Shown piece by piece: positions 20,445-49,931 of a stretch of DNA of 64,000 nucleotides. Position numbers and translations under genes: made by a program. The notes under the pieces are model-generated. The model was not told the origin of the DNA and made no database searches. It saw nothing but the letters and a program-made list of their open reading frames with translations. How positions within the stretch are numbered: the first letter of the stretch is position 1; each line of letters starts with the position of its first letter. Origin of the DNA: Vulcanimicrobiota bacterium. Lineage in GTDB: Bacteria > Vulcanimicrobiota > JAJTBE01. The DNA is taken from assembly GCA_021107945.1 (NCBI GenBank), contig JAIORV010000110.1:1-64000 (forward strand), read 5' to 3'.

Positions 20445-21368
20445 ATGGCAAAAAAGACAGAAAAGATCCTTGTAGTTGATGATCAGGTAGTAAACGCTGA
20501 ATTCATGAGAAAAATGATATCAAAATGGGGCTACGAAGTTATCCTGGCATACAGGGGTCTTCAAGCGATAAAAATCGCGCAGGAAGAAAAACCCGACATT
20601 ATCCTTCTTGATGTTATGATGCCGGATCTGACAGGTTATGAAGTATGCAGGGCTTTAAAAATCCACTCCGAGACAACTGAAATCCCAATAATTTTTCTTA
20701 CTGTTCAGGGGGAGATCTTTGATCGGATCGAAGGTTTGGAGTTGGGAGCGCATGATTATGTAACAAAGCCCTTTCACCCTGAGGAGTTAAAAATCAGGAT
20801 CAGAAGCGCATTGAGATACCGGGAAGAAAAAGAGAAACTGAAGCAAGAAACAGTTGACCTCAAGGCAAGATCAATTATTGACGAGTTGACCGAGTTTTAT
20901 AACAGACGTTATCTTGAAGAAAGATTACATGAGGAGCTTTCAAGGGCCAAAAGGTATAACTACCCGATATCCTGCGCTCTTGTGTCTCCAGACGGATTTG
21001 ACGAAATACGAAAGATTTATAGTAAATCCAGAGGTGACACGATAATTAAACAGGTCGGAGAGATCATGAAAAGAAACATCAGGGCGATTGACATTGTTAC
21101 AAGGTTTAGTGATGATGCATTCGCCATAATCCTTCCCCAGACAGGTCAGGAAGGAGCGGCAGTATTCGGAGAAAAGATCCGCAAAATAATTGAAAGACAT
21201 CTTTTTTATGGGATACCTGACAAGACCAAAATCACATCAAGTATCGGACTTGCAACATATGAGAATGAAAGCATCTCCGATCTTAATACACTTTTGAGTG
21301 AAGCGGAAAAAGCCCTTAAAAAAGCGCGGGAAGGCGATGGTAACAAGACCGTGGTTTTTCAAGTCTGA
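20445..21368 (+). CDS. Response regulator with degenerate GGDEF domain
   Basis: The 307-residue protein has an intact receiver domain (VVDD, phospho-Asp in ILLDVMMP, Lys in TKPF) joined by a helix to a GGDEF-fold domain (DELTEFYNRRYLEERL...). The active-site motif that should read GGDEF is SDDAF, and the first metal-ligand Asp of the usual D-x-D-x-FK is Ser (VSPDGFDE). It is therefore unlikely to make cyclic di-GMP and may act as a dimerising or binding domain. ATG 20445 is chosen because GGAGGT stands seven bases upstream; the frame is open to a GTG at 20397. It is the first gene of the plus-strand signalling run. Confidence 0.9.
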   Translation: MAKKTEKILVVDDQVVNAEFMRKMISKWGYEVILAYRGLQAIKIAQEEKPDIILLDVMMPDLTGYEVCRALKIHSETTEIPIIFLTVQGEIFDRIEGLELGAHDYVTKPFHPEELKIRIRSALRYREEKEKLKQETVDLKARSIIDELTEFYNRRYLEERLHEELSRAKRYNYPISCALVSPDGFDEIRKIYSKSRGDTIIKQVGEIMKRNIRAIDIVTRFSDDAFAIILPQTGQEGAAVFGEKIRKIIERHLFYGIPDKTKITSSIGLATYENESISDLNTLLSEAEKALKKAREGDGNKTVVFQV

Positions 21369-21482
21369 GTCCGATAAAAAGGGATAAGAAATGCATGGTA
21401 GAATCCTGAAATGTAATATTCCGAAATTTCCGGGACTTTTATCCGGTAAAAATTCCACTAAATAGAACGCAAGGAGTTGGCG

Positions 21483-23903
21483 ATGGAGATAATCAGAGAA
21501 AAATTGGAGACCCCTGTAAGTCAGAGAACGAGTGAGTTGCTCTGGGAAGGCCTTTCCAAGTCTTATAAACCCCTGCTCCATGAGGTGAGAGCTGAAAATC
21601 GTGAGAAAATCGGTCTCGATTTCATGGATGGATCATTGTTTTACAGGGGAGAGATCTTCTTCACCGAATCGGGTCAACTGCTATATTACCTGGCATCAGA
21701 AGACAAGGAATCAATCGAAGCAGGTACTATCCTGACAACCGACGAGGGAAAACAGATTTTCTCCGGGTTCAGGGAGAAGATTCGTGACACGGTACTTTTC
21801 GATAAAAGCCAACTGACTTCATGGGAGCCTGTCAAGCTTGAGAACCGGCAATTTGATCTTATCAGGGAGGAAGCACAAACACTTGAAGTAGATCGAATGG
21901 AAACAGAAGCGGCATTTGTCATGAAAGATGATAACCTGAGACATCTATTGAAGGAGATCAGTGAAAAAGGGAGCTGTTTTCAGGACGAGTTGCTAAAGGG
22001 AGAAAATGACCACAATACACCGAGTATGCTTAATCAACTTGAAATCCTGGGTCTTATATCCAAGGAATTCTTTATTTTCTGTCGCAAGACAGGTCAACAG
22101 ATAAGCAGAATCCATTCCCTCGATGCTCTTGAAGACGCGAGGATTCATGGATTCAAATGCTTCAATTGCGGCAGGTTAATCTCAGAGGAGAAAATTTCCC
22201 CGCAGGTTAAATGCTCAAAACTCGGCGAAAAATTCTCGCAGGCGAATTACTGGCTTGCCCTGCATCTCATCTATATTCTGGAAGACATGGGAATCAATAT
22301 CGAAAAAATATATTACAAGACCCAAAAGGACAACAAAGTTTTCGATCTGTTCGTAAATAGCTACGGACATTTCTTCATGTTCGAAATCAAAGACGAACCG
22401 GTGAAACTTGAAGATGTATTCATGTTTCTGTCCAGGGTCAACTTGTTCAAACCTTTCAGGACTATTTTGATATCATCACATCCTGTACCCCTTGATGTCC
22501 ATATGTATTTGAAGAACTATCGCGGGACGCCTCTCACGCTTGTCGAAGGACTGGATGAACTTGAAGATTATCTAATTGACTGCTTCCGGCACAAACAAGA
22601 GGTATATCTTGAGCACCTTTTCAAAAAATTCACTGGGGAGACAGGGATAGATATACTTCAAATGTTCCTGGAGAAATTCTTCGCAGGGAGAGAAGAGATA
22701 ATAGTAAGGAGACCCAAGAGAATATCTGAAAAAATTGCCGATGAAGTCCAGGAAGAAGTCATTGAAAAAATGGAAGAGTTCACAGAGGTTCTTCCCGGCG
22801 AGGAGCTTGAAGAAATCGCCCAGCTAACCAGGGAAATGCCGGCGGTGGCTATGGAAACCATGGAAATTGAGATAGAAGATTTAGGTATTATTGAAGAAGA
22901 AGAGACCGAGTTACCGCAAATTCATGATGAAATTCCCCTGGAAGAACCTGTGGAGGAAGAAATTCCCAAGCCTGTTTCAGAAGAAGAATCTGAAGTTGCC
23001 GGTGAACAAGGTATTGAAGAGATGATCGAAGAGGAAATACACAAGGTGGAAGAGGGCGACGGTTTAACCATGGATTTTGAAGTATCTCTCCCCACTGAAA
23101 TATTATCTATTGAGGAAATACCCACTGTTATTGATACATCCGAGGAAGACCTGGAAAGTAGAGTTGAAGAGATTCTGAGGATTATTGAAACCAAGGGAAT
23201 AGTCGGAAATTACAGCTTATTGGAAGATGAATTGAAAAAAATCAAGGAAATTGATTCTATCAGCGCAGCAATTGTTGGCACGGACGGGCTGATAATTTGC
23301 TCCGAACTGAACAACAATGTCGATTCCCTTGCACTCTCGGCATACTCCTCAGTAATTATGCAGACGATATCCAACACACTGGATGAGTTAGGATTTAAAA
23401 AAGCTCAGTCGGTATATATTGAGGGAATAACCGGTCGTGTCAGATTTTTTCCGGTAAACGGAGAAATAGTGGTTGCGTATGAAGAGAGAAAAACAAGTGA
23501 GGTTGAAGAAGAAGGCGGTCTTCTACCGGGAGAAGTTGTCCTCCGAGAGGCGATAATGAAGAAAGTGTTGGAAGACCTGGTAAAAATTGATGGAATTATG
23601 GGAAGTATTATTGCCGGGAGAGACGGGCTTATTATTGAATCACACCTCCCCGAGATGATGGATCCTGAAGCTCTGGGATACCTGACAAACATGGTGATTT
23701 CCGAGAATGAGAAATTTTTAAACGCGATTCAGGTGGGTGAGTTTCAACAGATCCATATAAAAACTCCCGATATACTCTATAATATGATACCAATAAAGTC
23801 AGAAGCGATATTGACAACCTGCATCGAGTCCTCTTCATCAAGAGAGGTTTTACAGAGCCGCCTACCTCATGCCGCTCTGATGATAACATCCGCGTTATCC
23901 TGA
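21483..23903 (+). CDS. wHTH / Zn-ribbon / PD-(D/E)XK-like / double-Roadblock protein
   Basis: The 806-residue protein appears to have five parts: an N-terminal part with no recognised fold; a winged-helix-like stretch near 150-205 (LNQLEILGLISKEFFIF); a zinc-ribbon knuckle (CFNCGR...KCSK, ~223-245); a restriction-endonuclease-like segment (~270-350) with D-x(n)-EIK spacing (FDLFV...FFMFEIK); a Glu-rich linker (~420-570); and two Roadblock/LC7 domains (~577-665 and 693-806, each with a GTDGLI or GRDGLI turn). Roadblock domains regulate small Ras-like GTPases in bacteria (MglB type). No such GTPase is in the window. ATG 21483 follows AAGGAG. The architecture is unfamiliar; the nuclease-fold call rests on motif spacing and needs a profile search. 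Confidence 0.7.
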   Translation: MEIIREKLETPVSQRTSELLWEGLSKSYKPLLHEVRAENREKIGLDFMDGSLFYRGEIFFTESGQLLYYLASEDKESIEAGTILTTDEGKQIFSGFREKIRDTVLFDKSQLTSWEPVKLENRQFDLIREEAQTLEVDRMETEAAFVMKDDNLRHLLKEISEKGSCFQDELLKGENDHNTPSMLNQLEILGLISKEFFIFCRKTGQQISRIHSLDALEDARIHGFKCFNCGRLISEEKISPQVKCSKLGEKFSQANYWLALHLIYILEDMGINIEKIYYKTQKDNKVFDLFVNSYGHFFMFEIKDEPVKLEDVFMFLSRVNLFKPFRTILISSHPVPLDVHMYLKNYRGTPLTLVEGLDELEDYLIDCFRHKQEVYLEHLFKKFTGETGIDILQMFLEKFFAGREEIIVRRPKRISEKIADEVQEEVIEKMEEFTEVLPGEELEEIAQLTREMPAVAMETMEIEIEDLGIIEEEETELPQIHDEIPLEEPVEEEIPKPVSEEESEVAGEQGIEEMIEEEIHKVEEGDGLTMDFEVSLPTEILSIEEIPTVIDTSEEDLESRVEEILRIIETKGIVGNYSLLEDELKKIKEIDSISAAIVGTDGLIICSELNNNVDSLALSAYSSVIMQTISNTLDELGFKKAQSVYIEGITGRVRFFPVNGEIVVAYEERKTSEVEEEGGLLPGEVVLREAIMKKVLEDLVKIDGIMGSIIAGRDGLIIESHLPEMMDPEALGYLTNMVISENEKFLNAIQVGEFQQIHIKTPDILYNMIPIKSEAILTTCIESSSSREVLQSRLPHAALMITSALS

Positions 23904-23964
23904 CCGTGAGGTTAATAAAGTCGGTTAGGAATATTTAAATTTATATTTTATTCAGGAGGTTAGT

Positions 23965-24312
23965 ATGGAGAATATCCTGGAAGAGCTTAATCAGATCCCG
24001 GGAGTAATGGGTTCAATGATAATAGGGAAAGACGGACTGGTGATTGTTCCATTATGGGAGCAAGATGTTGATATGGATATGGTGGGAGCCGATTCCGCAG
24101 ACATACTTGGAGCCGCCGAATCGTTGATGGAAGATAAGTTCGAATATGGCCCTATTGACATACTTTCACTTGAGACGAAAAATGCGAACTTTTTCCTCAA
24201 GAGCATTGATGACTCCACTTTTGTGGCGGTAGCGGCATCTCCCACTGCAAATCTGGGTCTAATCAGACTGGAAATCAGGTCCGCCGCCAAGAAACTCGAG
24301 GAAGTGTTATAA
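23965..24312 (+). CDS. Roadblock/LC7 (MglB-like) domain protein
   Basis: The 115-residue protein is a single Roadblock/LC7 domain: an N-terminal helix (ILEELNQIPGVMGSMII), the GKDGLV turn, a central helix with AESLM and a C-terminal helix. It resembles the two copies at the end of the upstream 806-residue protein, so it may dimerise with them or share a target. AGGAGG stands five bases before the ATG. The next gene starts 5 bp after its stop, which indicates an operon. Confidence 0.9.
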   Translation: MENILEELNQIPGVMGSMIIGKDGLVIVPLWEQDVDMDMVGADSADILGAAESLMEDKFEYGPIDILSLETKNANFFLKSIDDSTFVAVAASPTANLGLIRLEIRSAAKKLEEVL

Positions 24313-24317
24313 CCCGA

Positions 24318-26354
24318 ATGGACAAAGGTGAAGTCAAAATTCTTGTAGCTGACGATAACCCGGATATTTTGAAATTAATTGACTTGAACCTGAAATATGA
24401 GGGTTATAAGACCATAACAGCGAAAGACGGTGAAAAGGCATTAGGTCTTGCAAGGAAGCACAAGCCTGACCTTATAATTCTTGATATACTAATGCCTGTG
24501 ATGGATGGGTGGCAGGTGCTTTCAAACCTCAAGAACTCCGAGGAAACGGAGAACATTCCCGTTATCATGCTCACCGGGTTATCAATGAAAGAGGGGAAAG
24601 AAAGAGGCTTGATCGAGGGAGTCGAAGATTTCCTTAGTAAGCCTTTTAATCCACTTAGATTATTAGAGATCGTCGAAGATATAATTTCCCGGTATAAAGT
24701 TATTGCTCTTCCGCAAGCTCTATATTTCAAAAACATAAAAATAGGCTTGATAGGAGAGGGGAAATTAATTGTCGATATGGCAAGAGCTCTTATGGGATCA
24801 CCCAAAATCGAATTGCTTGCTTTTTATTATAACGGGGAAAATGGATCTTCAACAAGTATTCTTGAAAAGCTGAAAGTGCCTATGGTAGAATCACCCCTGG
24901 AAATGTTGGAAGTTCCCGGTATTGAATTAATTATTGATACATGCCAGACTATAGAACAGGATCTTATTAATAAATCAAAAGAAAAAGAAATCGACATTCT
25001 TTCCGGGGTCCCTGTTCATTTAGTTCTCACACTCCTGGAAGACCAGCAAACAACACGCATAAAAGAAAAATCACTTGTAAAAGAATTGAACACACGGGTC
25101 AAAGAGCTTTCACTATTAAATGAAATGTCACAGATTCTCACTTCACCGCTGAACCTATGGCTATTACTCGACAAAATAGCCCGGTTGGCCACCAAAATAA
25201 GTAAGGTTGATGCCTGCGCAATCCTCATGTATAACGAGGAGCAGGAGAAATTTATTGTTTCCAATACATTAGGACTTTCCGATTCATTTAAGGAAAACGT
25301 GAAATTATCCCTTTTCGATTCAATAATCGAGGAGATGATGACACTTAATCGCCCCCTTGTAGTAACAAATCTGGACAAATTGGGCATATCGCCTCTCATC
25401 AAAGAATCATTTCGTGAGGGCATGAAAAATATGGTTGCAGTTCCTTTACCTTCCAAGGGAAAGTTGATGGCTATTATTGCCATATATTCAAAGGAAAACA
25501 GGGAACTGCCTAAAGAAGCAATGGGGCTACTAACCATCCTGGCGGGACAGGCTGGAATATCGATTGAAAACGCCGATCTTTACGAAAGTACCCATCAGAA
25601 ACAACAGCTTGTGGAGCAACTACTGGGGAAAGTGATTCAGGCTCAGGAAGAAGAGCGAAAGAGAATAGCGGCGGAGCTGCATGATACAATAGCTCAGTCA
25701 CTGGTGGGGATACTAACAAAAGTGCAGACCTGTCAATTGCTAATGAAGAAGGACCCTTCACAGGTTCTTGGAAAATTAGAGGAGTTAAAAAATGTTGTCG
25801 GTGATAATGTAAAAGAAGTACGCCAGATAATATTCAACTTACGCCCGTCCTCTCTTGATGACCTGGGATTGGTTCCATCACTGGAAAATTACATCAAGAG
25901 ATTTGAAAAAGAGCATAATATTCATGTCGAATTTCGAATTAACAACAGGGAAAGAAGACTCCCCACAACAGTTGAGACTGCAGTTTTTCGAATAATACAG
26001 GAAGCACTCACCAATGTGAGGAAACATTCAAATGCTGACAAAACCCTTGTCAGACTAACTTTTCAACCTAAAATACTCAGCCTGCGCATTGCCGACAATG
26101 GAGAAGGGTTTGAGTGGGAAGAAGTTACGGAGAGGTTTATGAAGGGGCATTCCCATGGAATTCAGGGAATGAAAGAAAGAGTATCCGTACTTGGAGGAAC
26201 TTTCAAAATCACTACTGAAAAAGGAAAAGGATGCGTAGTAAACGCCCAGGTACCAATATATCGGAAAAAAGAAAAATCAACCAGGAAAACCATGAATCGT
26301 ATTTTTCGGGGAGACCGGAGACCGGAAGTCGGAGGTCGGATGACGGATAATTGA
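24318..26354 (+). CDS. Hybrid NarL-type histidine kinase (REC, Rossmann-like, GAF, HisKA_3)
   Basis: The 678-residue kinase begins with a receiver domain (VADDN, phospho-Asp in ILDILMP, Lys in SKPF; 1-125), followed by a Rossmann-like stretch (~140-235, KIGLIGEGKLI...IELIIDTCQ) resembling NAD-binding or metabolite-sensing folds, a coiled coil, a GAF domain (~290-435), a HisKA_3 dimerisation helix with phospho-acceptor His in AAELHDTIAQSL, and a HATPase (EALTNVRKH, ADNGEGF, GIQGMKERV). All catalytic boxes are intact. The response regulator whose gene overlaps its stop is the likely partner. The C-terminal ~20 residues (GDRRPEVGGRMTDN) are coded by GGAGGTCGG repeats. Confidence 0.93.
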   Translation: MDKGEVKILVADDNPDILKLIDLNLKYEGYKTITAKDGEKALGLARKHKPDLIILDILMPVMDGWQVLSNLKNSEETENIPVIMLTGLSMKEGKERGLIEGVEDFLSKPFNPLRLLEIVEDIISRYKVIALPQALYFKNIKIGLIGEGKLIVDMARALMGSPKIELLAFYYNGENGSSTSILEKLKVPMVESPLEMLEVPGIELIIDTCQTIEQDLINKSKEKEIDILSGVPVHLVLTLLEDQQTTRIKEKSLVKELNTRVKELSLLNEMSQILTSPLNLWLLLDKIARLATKISKVDACAILMYNEEQEKFIVSNTLGLSDSFKENVKLSLFDSIIEEMMTLNRPLVVTNLDKLGISPLIKESFREGMKNMVAVPLPSKGKLMAIIAIYSKENRELPKEAMGLLTILAGQAGISIENADLYESTHQKQQLVEQLLGKVIQAQEEERKRIAAELHDTIAQSLVGILTKVQTCQLLMKKDPSQVLGKLEELKNVVGDNVKEVRQIIFNLRPSSLDDLGLVPSLENYIKRFEKEHNIHVEFRINNRERRLPTTVETAVFRIIQEALTNVRKHSNADKTLVRLTFQPKILSLRIADNGEGFEWEEVTERFMKGHSHGIQGMKERVSVLGGTFKITTEKGKGCVVNAQVPIYRKKEKSTRKTMNRIFRGDRRPEVGGRMTDN

Positions 26355-26444
26355 TGACGGAAAACGGAGGTCGGAGGTTAGAGGTCGGAGGTCGGATGAT
26401 GGAGGACGGATCCCGTTTCCCGTTTCCCGTTTCCCGTTTCCCGC
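26308..26444. repeat. GGAGGTCGGATGACGG / CCCGTTTC simple repeat tract
   Basis: This tract repeats GGAGGTCGGA and GGATGACGGA words and then four tandem CCCGTTT units. It forms the end of the kinase reading frame and the beginning of the longest reading frame of the NarL regulator. Reverse-oriented relatives occur at 45297-45450, and forward relatives at 34725-34745. Confidence 0.85.
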
Positions 26445-26476
26445 TTCTCACTTCCAAAAGGAAAGGGGAATCTAAC

Positions 26477-27148
26477 TTGAAAAAAGAAGAAAACATTAGA
26501 ATATTGCTTGTAGATGATCACAACCTCGTGAGAGAGGGATTTTCACAGATGTTGGAACTTGAAGAGGATTTCATCGTTGCCGGTCAAGCTGCAAACGCGG
26601 ATGAAGCATTGGAGAAAGCCCTCGAGCTGAAACCCGATGTGATTTTAATGGATATAAAGCTTCCCGGCATAAATGGAATAGAAGCCACCAGGATGATAAA
26701 AAGTAAGCTTCCGGAGACTGAGATAATGATTCTCTCGATGTATGACGAAGAGGAGTATGTGAGAGAGGCTGTAAGAGCCGGTGCAACGGGCTATGTTTTA
26801 AAAGACATTTCGCAGGAAGACCTGATAAGAAATATTCGGGTACTGAATTCAGGAGGCTCATATATCCAACCTTCTCTTGCCCGAAAAGTTCTTCAGGATA
26901 TTGCATCGATGGGAAAGGCAAAAATTCAGACTTCATCAAGAAGCTCAAGTATCAGGGAACTCTCTGACAGAGAGATTGAAGTCCTGCAACATGTCGCAGA
27001 TGGGAAATCCAACAAGGAAGTTGCAAAGGCGTTAATTATTAGTGAAAAGACCGTAAAAGCTCATTTGCGCTCAATATTCCGAAAATTGGAAGTGGGAGAT
27101 CGGGCACAGGCGGTTGCCACGGCAATGAGGAAAGGACTTGTAGAATAG
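26477..27148 (+). CDS. NarL/FixJ-family response regulator
   Basis: From the TTG at 26477 the product is 223 residues, the normal size for this family: a receiver domain (VDDH, phospho-Asp in ILMDIKLP, Lys in VLKD) and a LuxR-type helix-turn-helix (LSDREIEVLQHVADGKSNKEVAKAL...EKTVKAHLRSIFRKL). The frame remains open upstream to 26351, but that stretch is a simple repeat; AGGGG lies nine bases before the TTG. It should be phosphorylated by the HisKA_3 kinase just upstream and act as a transcription factor. It ends 15 bp before a terminator-like hairpin that belongs to an opposing riboswitch. Confidence 0.95.
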   Translation: MKKEENIRILLVDDHNLVREGFSQMLELEEDFIVAGQAANADEALEKALELKPDVILMDIKLPGINGIEATRMIKSKLPETEIMILSMYDEEEYVREAVRAGATGYVLKDISQEDLIRNIRVLNSGGSYIQPSLARKVLQDIASMGKAKIQTSSRSSSIRELSDREIEVLQHVADGKSNKEVAKALIISEKTVKAHLRSIFRKLEVGDRAQAVATAMRKGLVE

Positions 27149-27162
27149 TCCGAAATAAATAA

Positions 27163-27180
27163 TCCCGGAAAATTCCGGGA
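27163..27180 (-). terminator. Intrinsic terminator after the TPP aptamer
   Basis: TCCCGGA (27163-27169) and TCCGGGA (27174-27180) form a seven-bp GC-rich stem with a four-base loop. On the minus strand it is followed by TTATTTATTT, a good intrinsic terminator. It begins seven bases after the aptamer, the usual layout of a transcription-attenuating riboswitch. On the plus strand no T-run follows, although the hairpin lies 15 bp beyond the NarL stop. Confidence 0.8.
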
Positions 27181-27186
27181 TAGCAA

Positions 27187-27275
27187 TTCCCTTCGCCGGT
27201 ATGAACCGGATCAAGTTATAGGGGTCGGTGACTGATCACGCCGCCTTCTCAGCTGGATACTACCAACTCCCCCAT
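27187..27275 (-). promoter_or_regulatory. Orphan TPP riboswitch (THI element)
   Basis: Read on the minus strand the segment has every conserved block of the TPP aptamer in order: GGGGGAGT, CCAGCTGAGA, a variable P3 arm, GACCCC, then TTGATCCGGTTCATACCGG and CGAAGGGAA. The pairing of GGGGG with ACCCC and of CCGG with CCGG is as in known THI elements. It should bind thiamine pyrophosphate and switch the adjacent terminator. Remarkably, the sequence downstream on this strand is the antisense of the NarL regulator and kinase; no thiamine gene is there. Confidence 0.92.
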
Positions 27276-27285
27276 TGCCACGCCA

Positions 27286-27313
27286 ATTATAACACATTCC
27301 CCAAAAATGTCAA
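27286..27313 (-). promoter_or_regulatory. Consensus sigma-70 promoter driving the TPP riboswitch
   Basis: On the minus strand both boxes are perfect: TTGACA (27308-27313), 16 bp spacer, TATAAT (27286-27291). The start of transcription would be near 27279, a few bases before the aptamer. It points away from the hybrid kinase gene starting at 27341. Confidence 0.88.
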
Positions 27314-27340
27314 GATCCCCACACAGGAAGGAGATTCCCG

Positions 27341-29038
27341 GTGACCGAAAATAAAAAGAGGACAAACAGGAAAGCAATTATTGAAGAATATGCTCTTTTG
27401 AGGGAAATCGCAGGTTCGGCGTTGTTCTTCTCAAACATCCCGGAGTATTCCACACTGGTTGAAGAAAAGCTTAAAATACTCTCGGGTTGGGATATGGTAA
27501 GGATTATAGAGCACAGTATATCAAGAGGTTGTTTTATCAGTCGCGATATACGGGCTCCATTTATGGAAAATAGGAATATGGATTTTTTTTCACCGAACTC
27601 GCCGGTAATTCAAGAAGTTAAAAGCTCCGAGAACATTGTTACTATAAAGCTTGACGCTGCAGAAATAAAATCCAGGTATGAAAAGAAACTTATAAAAAAT
27701 GGATTTAAATATGCATATCTTACCCCCATTGGAGTAAGAAACAAGTTTGTCGGCGTTCTTGCCGCATTTTCAAAAAATGAAGAGCCGGCAGACGATATTG
27801 ACCTGTCATTGTTGAGCCTGACCAGTGAGATCCTGGCGCTTTCACAGGAGATGTATTTCAACTCCAAAAAGCTTTGCGATTTTGAAAAAGTGGTTGACAA
27901 TTATGAAAATGCCCGTATAGAGTTGGAATCGGCCAAAATATTGGAAGAGCTCAGCTCGGGAATTGTGTTTAAATCTAATAATCTTCTAGCAGGCATCCTG
28001 GGATATATTGATCTCTTCGAAAAAAATACCGGGGATATGGATTCACAAAGTCTGTTCAAACAAATAAAAAGAGCATCTGTTTCAATCAGCGAAACCGTAG
28101 CTACTCTCCAGGAATTGAGAAAACTGGGTGCAAGACAAGATCCATGTCCGTTGGATATTAATAGGCTTATCAAGAGAGTGATAGAACTGACAAAGCCGAA
28201 GTGGAAAGACGAATCCTGGGCAAGAAATATCGAATATAAATTAGAAGTTGACTTACGCCCGTTACACTTTATATCGGGAAATTCCTCCAGACTGATGGAA
28301 GCGTTAATTATCATACTGTTTCAAGCAATTGAGAGCATTCCCCGGGGAGGAAGAATTATTATAGAGAGCCAAGGTAATGAAGACGAAGTTGTTTTATCTT
28401 TCCATGCAATTCAGGAATCAGGGCTTCAATCGGGACTGACCATTTTCGATCCGTTCCTACAGGATAGAGCCGGCCCTAAAATCGGCCCTGATATTGAAGT
28501 TGCCCGCAAAATTATGAAGAGACACAATGGACAACTCCTGGTGGAAAGCAAAATTGGCAGGGGCAATATTATAACCATCAAATTGCCTGTGACAAAGGAT
28601 GAAATATTAATAAAGGAATATAGTGAAGGGACTCTGAAGGAAACCGGAACTCTTCTTGTAGTTGAAGACGAGCAGATTGTAAGAGAACTTCTACGGGATA
28701 AGCTTAAATCCGAGGGTTTCAAAGTAACAGTGGCGGAAAACGGACAGGAAGCATTGAATTACTTGAGAGAAAAAGAATTTGATCTCCTGTTGACCGATCT
28801 GGGAATGCCCGGAATGTCCGGGAATCAACTCTCGGTCGAAGCGAAAGAATTGTGGCCTGATATGCCGATTATTCTGGCCACGGGATGGGAATCAAGGATA
28901 GACAGGAATAAATTGAAGGAATATAAAATCGATTATGTCGTTGGAAAACCTTTCCAATTCAATGAAATTATAAATGTGATACTGGAATCTCTCATAAAAA
29001 GGCGAGAACTAAAAAAGAATGACCGCAAAATTGATTGA
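27341..29038 (+). CDS. Kinase-dead hybrid histidine kinase with C-terminal receiver
   Basis: The 565-residue protein has a GAF-like sensory region (~20-175), a HisKA-like helix, a HATPase-like region and an intact receiver (VEDE, phospho-Asp486 in LLTDLGMP, Lys in GKPF). The kinase core is degenerate: the phospho-acceptor His is Phe210 (GIVFKSNNLL where GVAHEFNNLL is usual), both Asn of the N-box are replaced (IILFQA for NLLxNA) and no G1 DxGxG is visible. It cannot be a normal autokinase and may be a scaffold, or a receiver controlled by another kinase. GTG 27341 has GGAAGGAG upstream. It follows the riboswitch on the same strand as the preceding signalling genes. Confidence 0.88.
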   Translation: MTENKKRTNRKAIIEEYALLREIAGSALFFSNIPEYSTLVEEKLKILSGWDMVRIIEHSISRGCFISRDIRAPFMENRNMDFFSPNSPVIQEVKSSENIVTIKLDAAEIKSRYEKKLIKNGFKYAYLTPIGVRNKFVGVLAAFSKNEEPADDIDLSLLSLTSEILALSQEMYFNSKKLCDFEKVVDNYENARIELESAKILEELSSGIVFKSNNLLAGILGYIDLFEKNTGDMDSQSLFKQIKRASVSISETVATLQELRKLGARQDPCPLDINRLIKRVIELTKPKWKDESWARNIEYKLEVDLRPLHFISGNSSRLMEALIIILFQAIESIPRGGRIIIESQGNEDEVVLSFHAIQESGLQSGLTIFDPFLQDRAGPKIGPDIEVARKIMKRHNGQLLVESKIGRGNIITIKLPVTKDEILIKEYSEGTLKETGTLLVVEDEQIVRELLRDKLKSEGFKVTVAENGQEALNYLREKEFDLLLTDLGMPGMSGNQLSVEAKELWPDMPIILATGWESRIDRNKLKEYKIDYVVGKPFQFNEIINVILESLIKRRELKKNDRKID

Positions 29039-29054
29039 AAGCAGGAATTGACTG

Positions 29055-29450
29055 ATGGGCGAAATTTCCACGAGACTTTTTAATGAAGAAGATCTCAACC
29101 TGGCAGAAGAGATGATGACTTCCGCCTGGAAGTTTTACCTTCAGGAAACAACTCCCGAGCGACTCAGGCAATTATTGGAAGATCAATTGGAAAACCCTGC
29201 ATCCAAAGTCTGGCTTGTTTTCGAAAACGACAACCCGATAGGTATAGCGGAAATATCCATTACAGAAAGTTACAGGTATGACGGTGAGGAAGCGCTCCTG
29301 AAACTAATATTTATTAGCGATACAGCATCCAACTATTATGATGTACACTCCGCATTGATGGATACAATCTTCGGATACCTTCGGGATGAGGGAATAGACT
29401 ACCTGAGGGTTGACACAACGCTGGAAAATGCGGATGTGTTGTTGGTGTAA
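29055..29450 (+). CDS. GNAT-like acetyltransferase-fold protein
   Basis: The 131-residue protein has a GNAT-like pattern: an N-terminal helix pair (EDLNLAEEMMTSAWKF), the WLVFENDNPIGIAEISIT beta hairpin, a KLIFISDTAS strand and a C-terminal LRVDTTLEN. The usual Q/RxxGxG/A acetyl-CoA loop is not visible, and the protein stops where the family's final strands should come, so it may be truncated or a diverged binding protein. AGGAAT precedes the ATG, 16 bp after the hybrid kinase gene, so it is probably the last gene of that unit. Confidence 0.6.
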   Translation: MGEISTRLFNEEDLNLAEEMMTSAWKFYLQETTPERLRQLLEDQLENPASKVWLVFENDNPIGIAEISITESYRYDGEEALLKLIFISDTASNYYDVHSALMDTIFGYLRDEGIDYLRVDTTLENADVLLV

Positions 29451-49858: not shown

Positions 49859-49931
49859 GGAGGTGAGAGGTGGGAGGTGAGAGGTGAGAGGTGAGAGGTG
49901 AGAGGTGAGAGGTGGGAGGTGGGAAGTGGGA
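49859..49931. repeat. GGTGAGA heptamer minisatellite
   Basis: About ten tandem heptamers, GGTGAGA or GGTGGGA, run without interruption. A related GTGAGAA tract is at 61190-61244. Length is likely to vary between strains. Confidence 0.9.

Follow-up and report, generated by a model that had tools for sequence, protein, structure and literature searches.

Introduction

The bacterial Roadblock systems described so far, MglAB and the conservons, act on a small GTPase, and orphan Roadblock proteins were termed experimentally uncharacterized in 2014 (PMC4316618). Conservons are found in Actinomycetota and consist of a CvnA kinase, a CvnB Roadblock protein, CvnC and a CvnD GTPase (PMC4316618, PMC13343842). 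Here we describe a locus in a 64,000-nucleotide stretch of a Vulcanimicrobiota genome (assembly GCA_021107945.1, contig JAIORV010000110.1, positions 1 to 64,000; hereafter the window), in which Roadblock proteins are encoded beside a two-component pair. A first-pass annotation had proposed a Roadblock, nuclease-fold and two-component module of eight consecutive genes. We find seven genes, A to G, all on the plus strand, and the conserved core of the module comprises B, C, D and E, without A, F and G; in most relatives it is joined by a tetratricopeptide repeat (TPR) protein that had been missed, as its gene has moved elsewhere in the window's own genome. A literature search for this combination of domains found nothing direct, and our data point to an undescribed signaling complex.

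A further point of comparison lies in riboswitch biology, as a thiamine pyrophosphate (TPP) riboswitch lies antisense to the end of gene E. Two antisense-acting riboswitches have been described, for S-adenosylmethionine (SAM) at ubiG and for cobalamin at pocR, and many others are predicted, including ones for TPP; in one survey, 83 of 9,766 TPP riboswitches were classed as antisense-acting (PMC9943018).

A Roadblock module conserved within the phylum

The core genes of the window are as follows.

21483..23903, plus strand: gene B, 806 amino acids from an ATG; multidomain protein with two C-terminal Roadblock domains (AlphaFold, Foldseek, homologues)
23965..24312, plus strand: gene C, free Roadblock protein of 115 amino acids (Pfam Robl_LC7)
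24318..26354, plus strand: gene D, histidine kinase with the order REC, Rossmann-like, GAF, HisKA_3, HATPase (Pfam; motif alignment)
26477..27148, plus strand: gene E, NarL-type response regulator of 223 amino acids from TTG 26477 (Pfam; orthologues)

The core of B was present in 31 of the 148 genomes of the phylum that were sampled, and nearly all of these encode one long copy of about 650–950 amino acids that has Roadblocks and one Roadblock-free short copy of about 450–620 amino acids. When 22 long and 22 short copies were placed in one tree, a single branch (support 100/99) split the two groups, and the family grouping was broadly repeated on either side of it. This pattern fits one ancient duplication of which both products were retained. 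Short paralogues were read at L010 (8110-9600) and at L070-L088; a gene fusing a nucleotidyltransferase to a phosphomannomutase lies near the short copy in 13 of 22 loci, often adjacent to it.

The surroundings of the long copy are conserved across many families, as the first-pass annotation had suggested checking. In 17 of 22 readable loci the gene just before B encodes the TPR protein (~1250 amino acids), and C follows B immediately in 16 of 21 (window included). Counting the window, 11 long-B loci contain D and 10 contain E, and complete TPR-B-C-D-E runs were observed in L039, L041 and L058. The order is different in the genomes of family f7 (L053 and L054), where D and E are divergent and lie upstream of the TPR gene. 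Beside E and D in these two loci (L053 198-2309, L054 740-2822) are genes for a free GGDEF-like protein, a Ser/Thr kinase-like protein and an uncharacterized 117-residue protein. In the window's own genome, the full-length TPR orthologue (44% identity over 1205 residues) sits on contig C37 between NAD-kinase-like and unrelated genes.

Co-inheritance extends beyond gene order. Orthologues of the TPR protein and of E were found in 18 and 12 of 38 genomes, respectively, all of them bearing B, and in none of the 14 that lack it (Fisher tests, 4e-6 and 1e-3, which carry no correction for phylogeny and overstate independence). Four matches with titles from other groups (Armatimonadetes, Burkholderiales, Melainabacteria and Bacillota) share contig coordinates with genomes of the same phylum, and from this pattern-limited scan we make no claim of a spread beyond it.

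The best match of C in the PDB is the Asgard Roadblock 7f8m. In D, Pfam places Response_reg, GAF, HisKA_3 and HATPase, with the acceptor histidine and the N box intact, and in E Response_reg and GerE, so that both halves of a HisKA_3/NarL two-component pair are present. The first-pass description of D as a receiver-Rossmann-GAF kinase stands for the receiver, GAF and kinase parts; the Rossmann part drew only sub-threshold matches and no convincing relative. Orthologues of E are 60–68% identical in 11 relatives, and the next best matches reach at most 47%. Its start is placed at about TTG 26477 because nearly all orthologues align only from about residue 46–51 of the original open reading frame. 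The overlap of D and E in that frame is only apparent and stems from a low-complexity GGAGGTC-type repeat read as coding. Dispersed GGAGGTC/GGAGGTG heptamer-type repeats occur at 26324-26399, between D and E, and again at 49859-49927 (14 matches against 1 expected).

Protein B carries a nuclease-like fold with a degraded active site

Protein B has, in order, an N-terminal alpha/beta part, a winged-helix-like part, a CxxC zinc-knuckle-like motif, a PD-(D/E)XK-like domain (about residues 252–354), an acidic linker and two Roadblock domains. Of these, Pfam detects only the C-terminal Robl_LC7, and NCBIfam likewise nothing but Roadblock. The predicted structure of the Roadblock pair (predicted local distance difference test (pLDDT) 85, predicted template modeling score 0.83) has the Asgard Roadblock 9jue and MglB among its top Foldseek matches, which bears out the two Roadblock domains first proposed from the sequence. 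Profile matches above cut-off and fold thus both place the C terminus of B, and C, in the Roadblock/LC7 superfamily.

The remainder of B was examined with an AlphaFold model of residues 1–405 built from ten diverse sequences (pLDDT 84). Residues 254–354 of this model have the alpha-beta-beta-beta-alpha-beta order of PD-(D/E)XK folds, and its best Foldseek match was the restriction enzyme EcoT38I (E 2.7e-4), followed by the Can2 nuclease; Cap4 and RNA polymerase subunit E came lower in the list. There was also a weak profile match to 8bao. The template modeling scores were low (about 0.2–0.3), and support is therefore at the level of fold and for this one domain. The nuclease-like fold that had been placed in the middle of B is in this way supported by the model, whereas a conserved active site is not. 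Of the two results that the first-pass annotation would have taken as refutation, an unconserved neighborhood and a middle of B with some other fold, neither was obtained. The catalytic triad D290, E303 and K305 (numbered from the TTG) is complete in only three of ~25 members (window, L039 and L058), which makes it unlikely that nuclease function is conserved. That B is an active nuclease switched on by Roadblock and two-component signaling, for example in defense, would agree with the structural matches and with those three complete triads, but we regard it as very improbable. This is because the D...ExK site is broken in most long copies and all short copies examined, and the only invariant residues in an alignment of 24 sequences, E238 and W259, both lie outside it. 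In addition, the distribution of B is broad and largely vertical rather than patchy, and PADLOC recognized neither B nor its short paralogue, on which ground a defense role was dropped. TackOD1 was considered for the cysteine motif and likewise dropped, having no Pfam match.

PD-(D/E)XK folds often bind DNA. With its winged helix-turn-helix-like segment and conserved CxxC, B might accordingly be read as a transcription factor in which winged helix, zinc knuckle and nuclease-like domain contact DNA and the Roadblocks dimerize. We consider this unlikely, as at least two of the cysteines are gone in L040, L047, L048 and L049, and no DNA-binding family reached the cut-off for B in Pfam or NCBIfam.

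No MglA-type GTPase detected for the module

Since known bacterial Roadblock systems use a GTPase, the Roadblocks of the module could serve one of the MglA or conservon kind that is encoded elsewhere and is the missing switch. A marginal Foldseek match of the B core to the Roco COR domain may be counted in its favor, as may the one LRR-ROCO-TIR protein of the window's own genome. However, an Arf search of that genome (98.6% complete) found no MglA-type or other stand-alone Ras-like GTPase; it returned only the LRR-ROCO-TIR protein, HflX and a third, sub-threshold frame. Nor was a small GTPase noticed as a recurrent neighbor in the clustered B loci, and we judge a switch of this kind to be quite unlikely. 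As observed, the module is without a GTPase, although the ROCO protein may be a partner of it. The ROCO protein (L067, on contig C11) has leucine-rich repeats and a C-terminal TIR-like segment, and apart from HflX it holds the only Ras-type GTPase domain above cut-off. The same genome has a second Roadblock locus (L009, contig C54), which encodes TPR proteins, a DUF4388 protein, a free Roadblock, a CheY-like receiver, a GAF-PAS-type kinase and a TPR-Roadblock fusion.

An antisense TPP riboswitch at the end of gene E

Three features lie on the opposite strand beyond the 3' end of E.

27286..27313, minus strand: consensus sigma-70 promoter TTGACA-16-TATAAT (12/12) of the riboswitch; its -10 region is conserved in L039
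27171..27283, minus strand: TPP riboswitch aptamer RF00059, pointing at the 3' end of E (Rfam 67.3 bits against a gathering threshold of 54.3)
27162..27181, minus strand: terminator-like hairpin with a U-rich tail directly after the aptamer; a strong hairpin in the same segment

This is the only TPP riboswitch detected in the window's own genome, and no conserved sense reading frame was found downstream of it. An aptamer that has a promoter of its own, lies antisense at a gene's 3' end and has no sense gene to serve shows the layout of antisense-acting riboswitches. The same layout is seen in genome G017, of another family, whose sole TPP riboswitch is likewise antisense and 3' of E, with promoter and hairpin (L039 5407-5551). 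The two segments can be aligned with each other from the -10 box into E, and the E proteins of the two families are 68% identical. Taken together, the sole riboswitch antisense at E and its recurrence in a second family suggest a TPP-controlled antisense RNA over E.

A different view is that the riboswitch is left over from a thiamine gene since lost and does not affect E. We hold this to be possible though doubtful: no conserved sense frame follows, and ThiC was not found in the window's own genome or in G017, yet aptamer, -10 region and position relative to E have been kept in both families, and in each of the two genomes this is the only TPP riboswitch detected. At the other E-bearing loci examined there was no TPP riboswitch. 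In the examples read from families f14, f16 and f9, a TPP riboswitch precedes a ThiC-like gene. Family f13 (L096, L097, L098, L100 and L101) has one before a gene for a ~140–160-residue protein, whose L101 copy drew no Pfam match; most of these loci also encode a long coiled-coil-like protein after the TPP riboswitch.

Genes A, F and G are neighbors of the module

The remaining three genes of the locus flank the core.

20445..21368, plus strand: gene A, receiver (REC) with a degenerate GGDEF domain (Pfam; PleD alignment); outside the conserved core
27341..29038, plus strand: gene F, hybrid kinase with destroyed HisKA/HATPase motifs and a REC domain; neighbor only
29055..29450, plus strand: gene G, short GNAT-like protein (Pfam Acetyltransf_4); neighbor only

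The first-pass domain readings of all three were correct. Pfam finds Response_reg and GGDEF in A, in which SDDAF replaces the GGEEF of PleD, so that the GG(D/E)EF active site of diguanylate cyclases is gone; the I-site RAID is retained, and through it A may bind cyclic di-GMP. In F, Response_reg is above cut-off and HATPase and HisKA are below it, and alignment to an intact kinase from the same window showed the phospho-acceptor histidine, the N box and the DxGxG box all replaced.

Their place in the module did not survive comparison, nor did the single tight operon with spacing of 5 to 60 bp and overlapping ends that had been proposed. The gaps from A-B to F-G are 114, 61, 5, ~122, 192 and 16 bp, and the 192-bp gap between E and F holds the opposing promoter, the riboswitch and the hairpin. 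F and G therefore probably form a transcription unit separate from B-E. It is conceivable that all seven genes make up one system, being close together on one strand and A keeping its I-site, but this is highly unlikely given the contents of the E-F gap, the 114 bp between A and B and the lack of A, F and G beside B in all 22 other loci examined.

Proposed mechanism

Overall, we hypothesize, with a probability of about 0.5, that the B-C-D-E genes of the window belong to a conserved TPR-B-C-D-E module in which a Roadblock/TPR scaffold acts on a kinase-regulator pair whose regulator, E, is coupled to TPP by antisense in two lineages. B would be an adaptor, its C-terminal Roadblock pair a platform able to bind the free Roadblock C, the TPR protein or both. 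The N-terminal winged-helix, CxxC and PD-(D/E)XK-like part would serve as a mostly non-catalytic domain for binding a partner protein or nucleic acid. The presumed complex of B, C and the TPR protein would modulate the soluble kinase D, with its REC and GAF inputs, and D would phosphorylate E. In the lineage of the window and one other, antisense RNA from the riboswitch would couple expression of E, and perhaps of D, to TPP.

Several observations weigh against this scheme. Most of the genomes without B come from a single large family, and the co-occurrence therefore does not represent many independent events. B lacks D and E as neighbors in families f8, f11 and f15, and C as a neighbor in L044, L046 and L050; the parts of the module are therefore separable. 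The antisense riboswitch at E is common to two genomes only, and the L039 aptamer has CUGAAA where the consensus is CUGAGA. A bolder version is tentative and in our view less likely than not: a Roadblock complex without a GTPase, characteristic of a single phylum, in which the kinase-regulator pair is gated by a nuclease-fold/Roadblock scaffold devoid of catalysis, by the ancient short paralogue of this scaffold and by a giant TPR protein, with TPP antisense tuning in some lineages.

If true, a conserved Roadblock module that has no GTPase and is linked to a two-component pair would open the role of orphan Roadblocks to testing. It would also be a clear example of a nuclease fold converted to a signaling adaptor, and would add a two-component regulator to the targets of antisense-acting riboswitches.

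Comparison with known systems

The conservons are similar in that a Roadblock protein is encoded with a histidine kinase, as are C and D, the counterparts of an MglB-type protein and CvnA, which are adjacent and 5 bp apart. They differ from the module in having the CvnD GTPase, for which the Arf search gave no counterpart, and CvnC, a type of protein that is not among the Pfam matches of the seven genes. The module in turn has further parts, namely the TPR protein, the multidomain scaffold B with its Roadblocks and the NarL regulator E, and lies outside Actinomycetota. With the MglA/MglB polarity switch it shares the Roadblock fold, MglB being among the top structural matches of B, but MglA was not detected in the window's own genome.

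Can2/Card1-type and Cap4 proteins share the PD-(D/E)XK-like domain of B, whereas no CARF or SAVED sensor was found here and the catalytic triad is mostly lost. PleD-like REC-GGDEF regulators have the domain layout and I-site of A, but their active-site motif is lost in A. Lastly, the riboswitch at E resembles the SAM/ubiG and cobalamin/pocR cases in its position at the 3' end of a gene and its antisense orientation, and differs from them in its target, which here would be the response regulator of a two-component pair within a Roadblock module.

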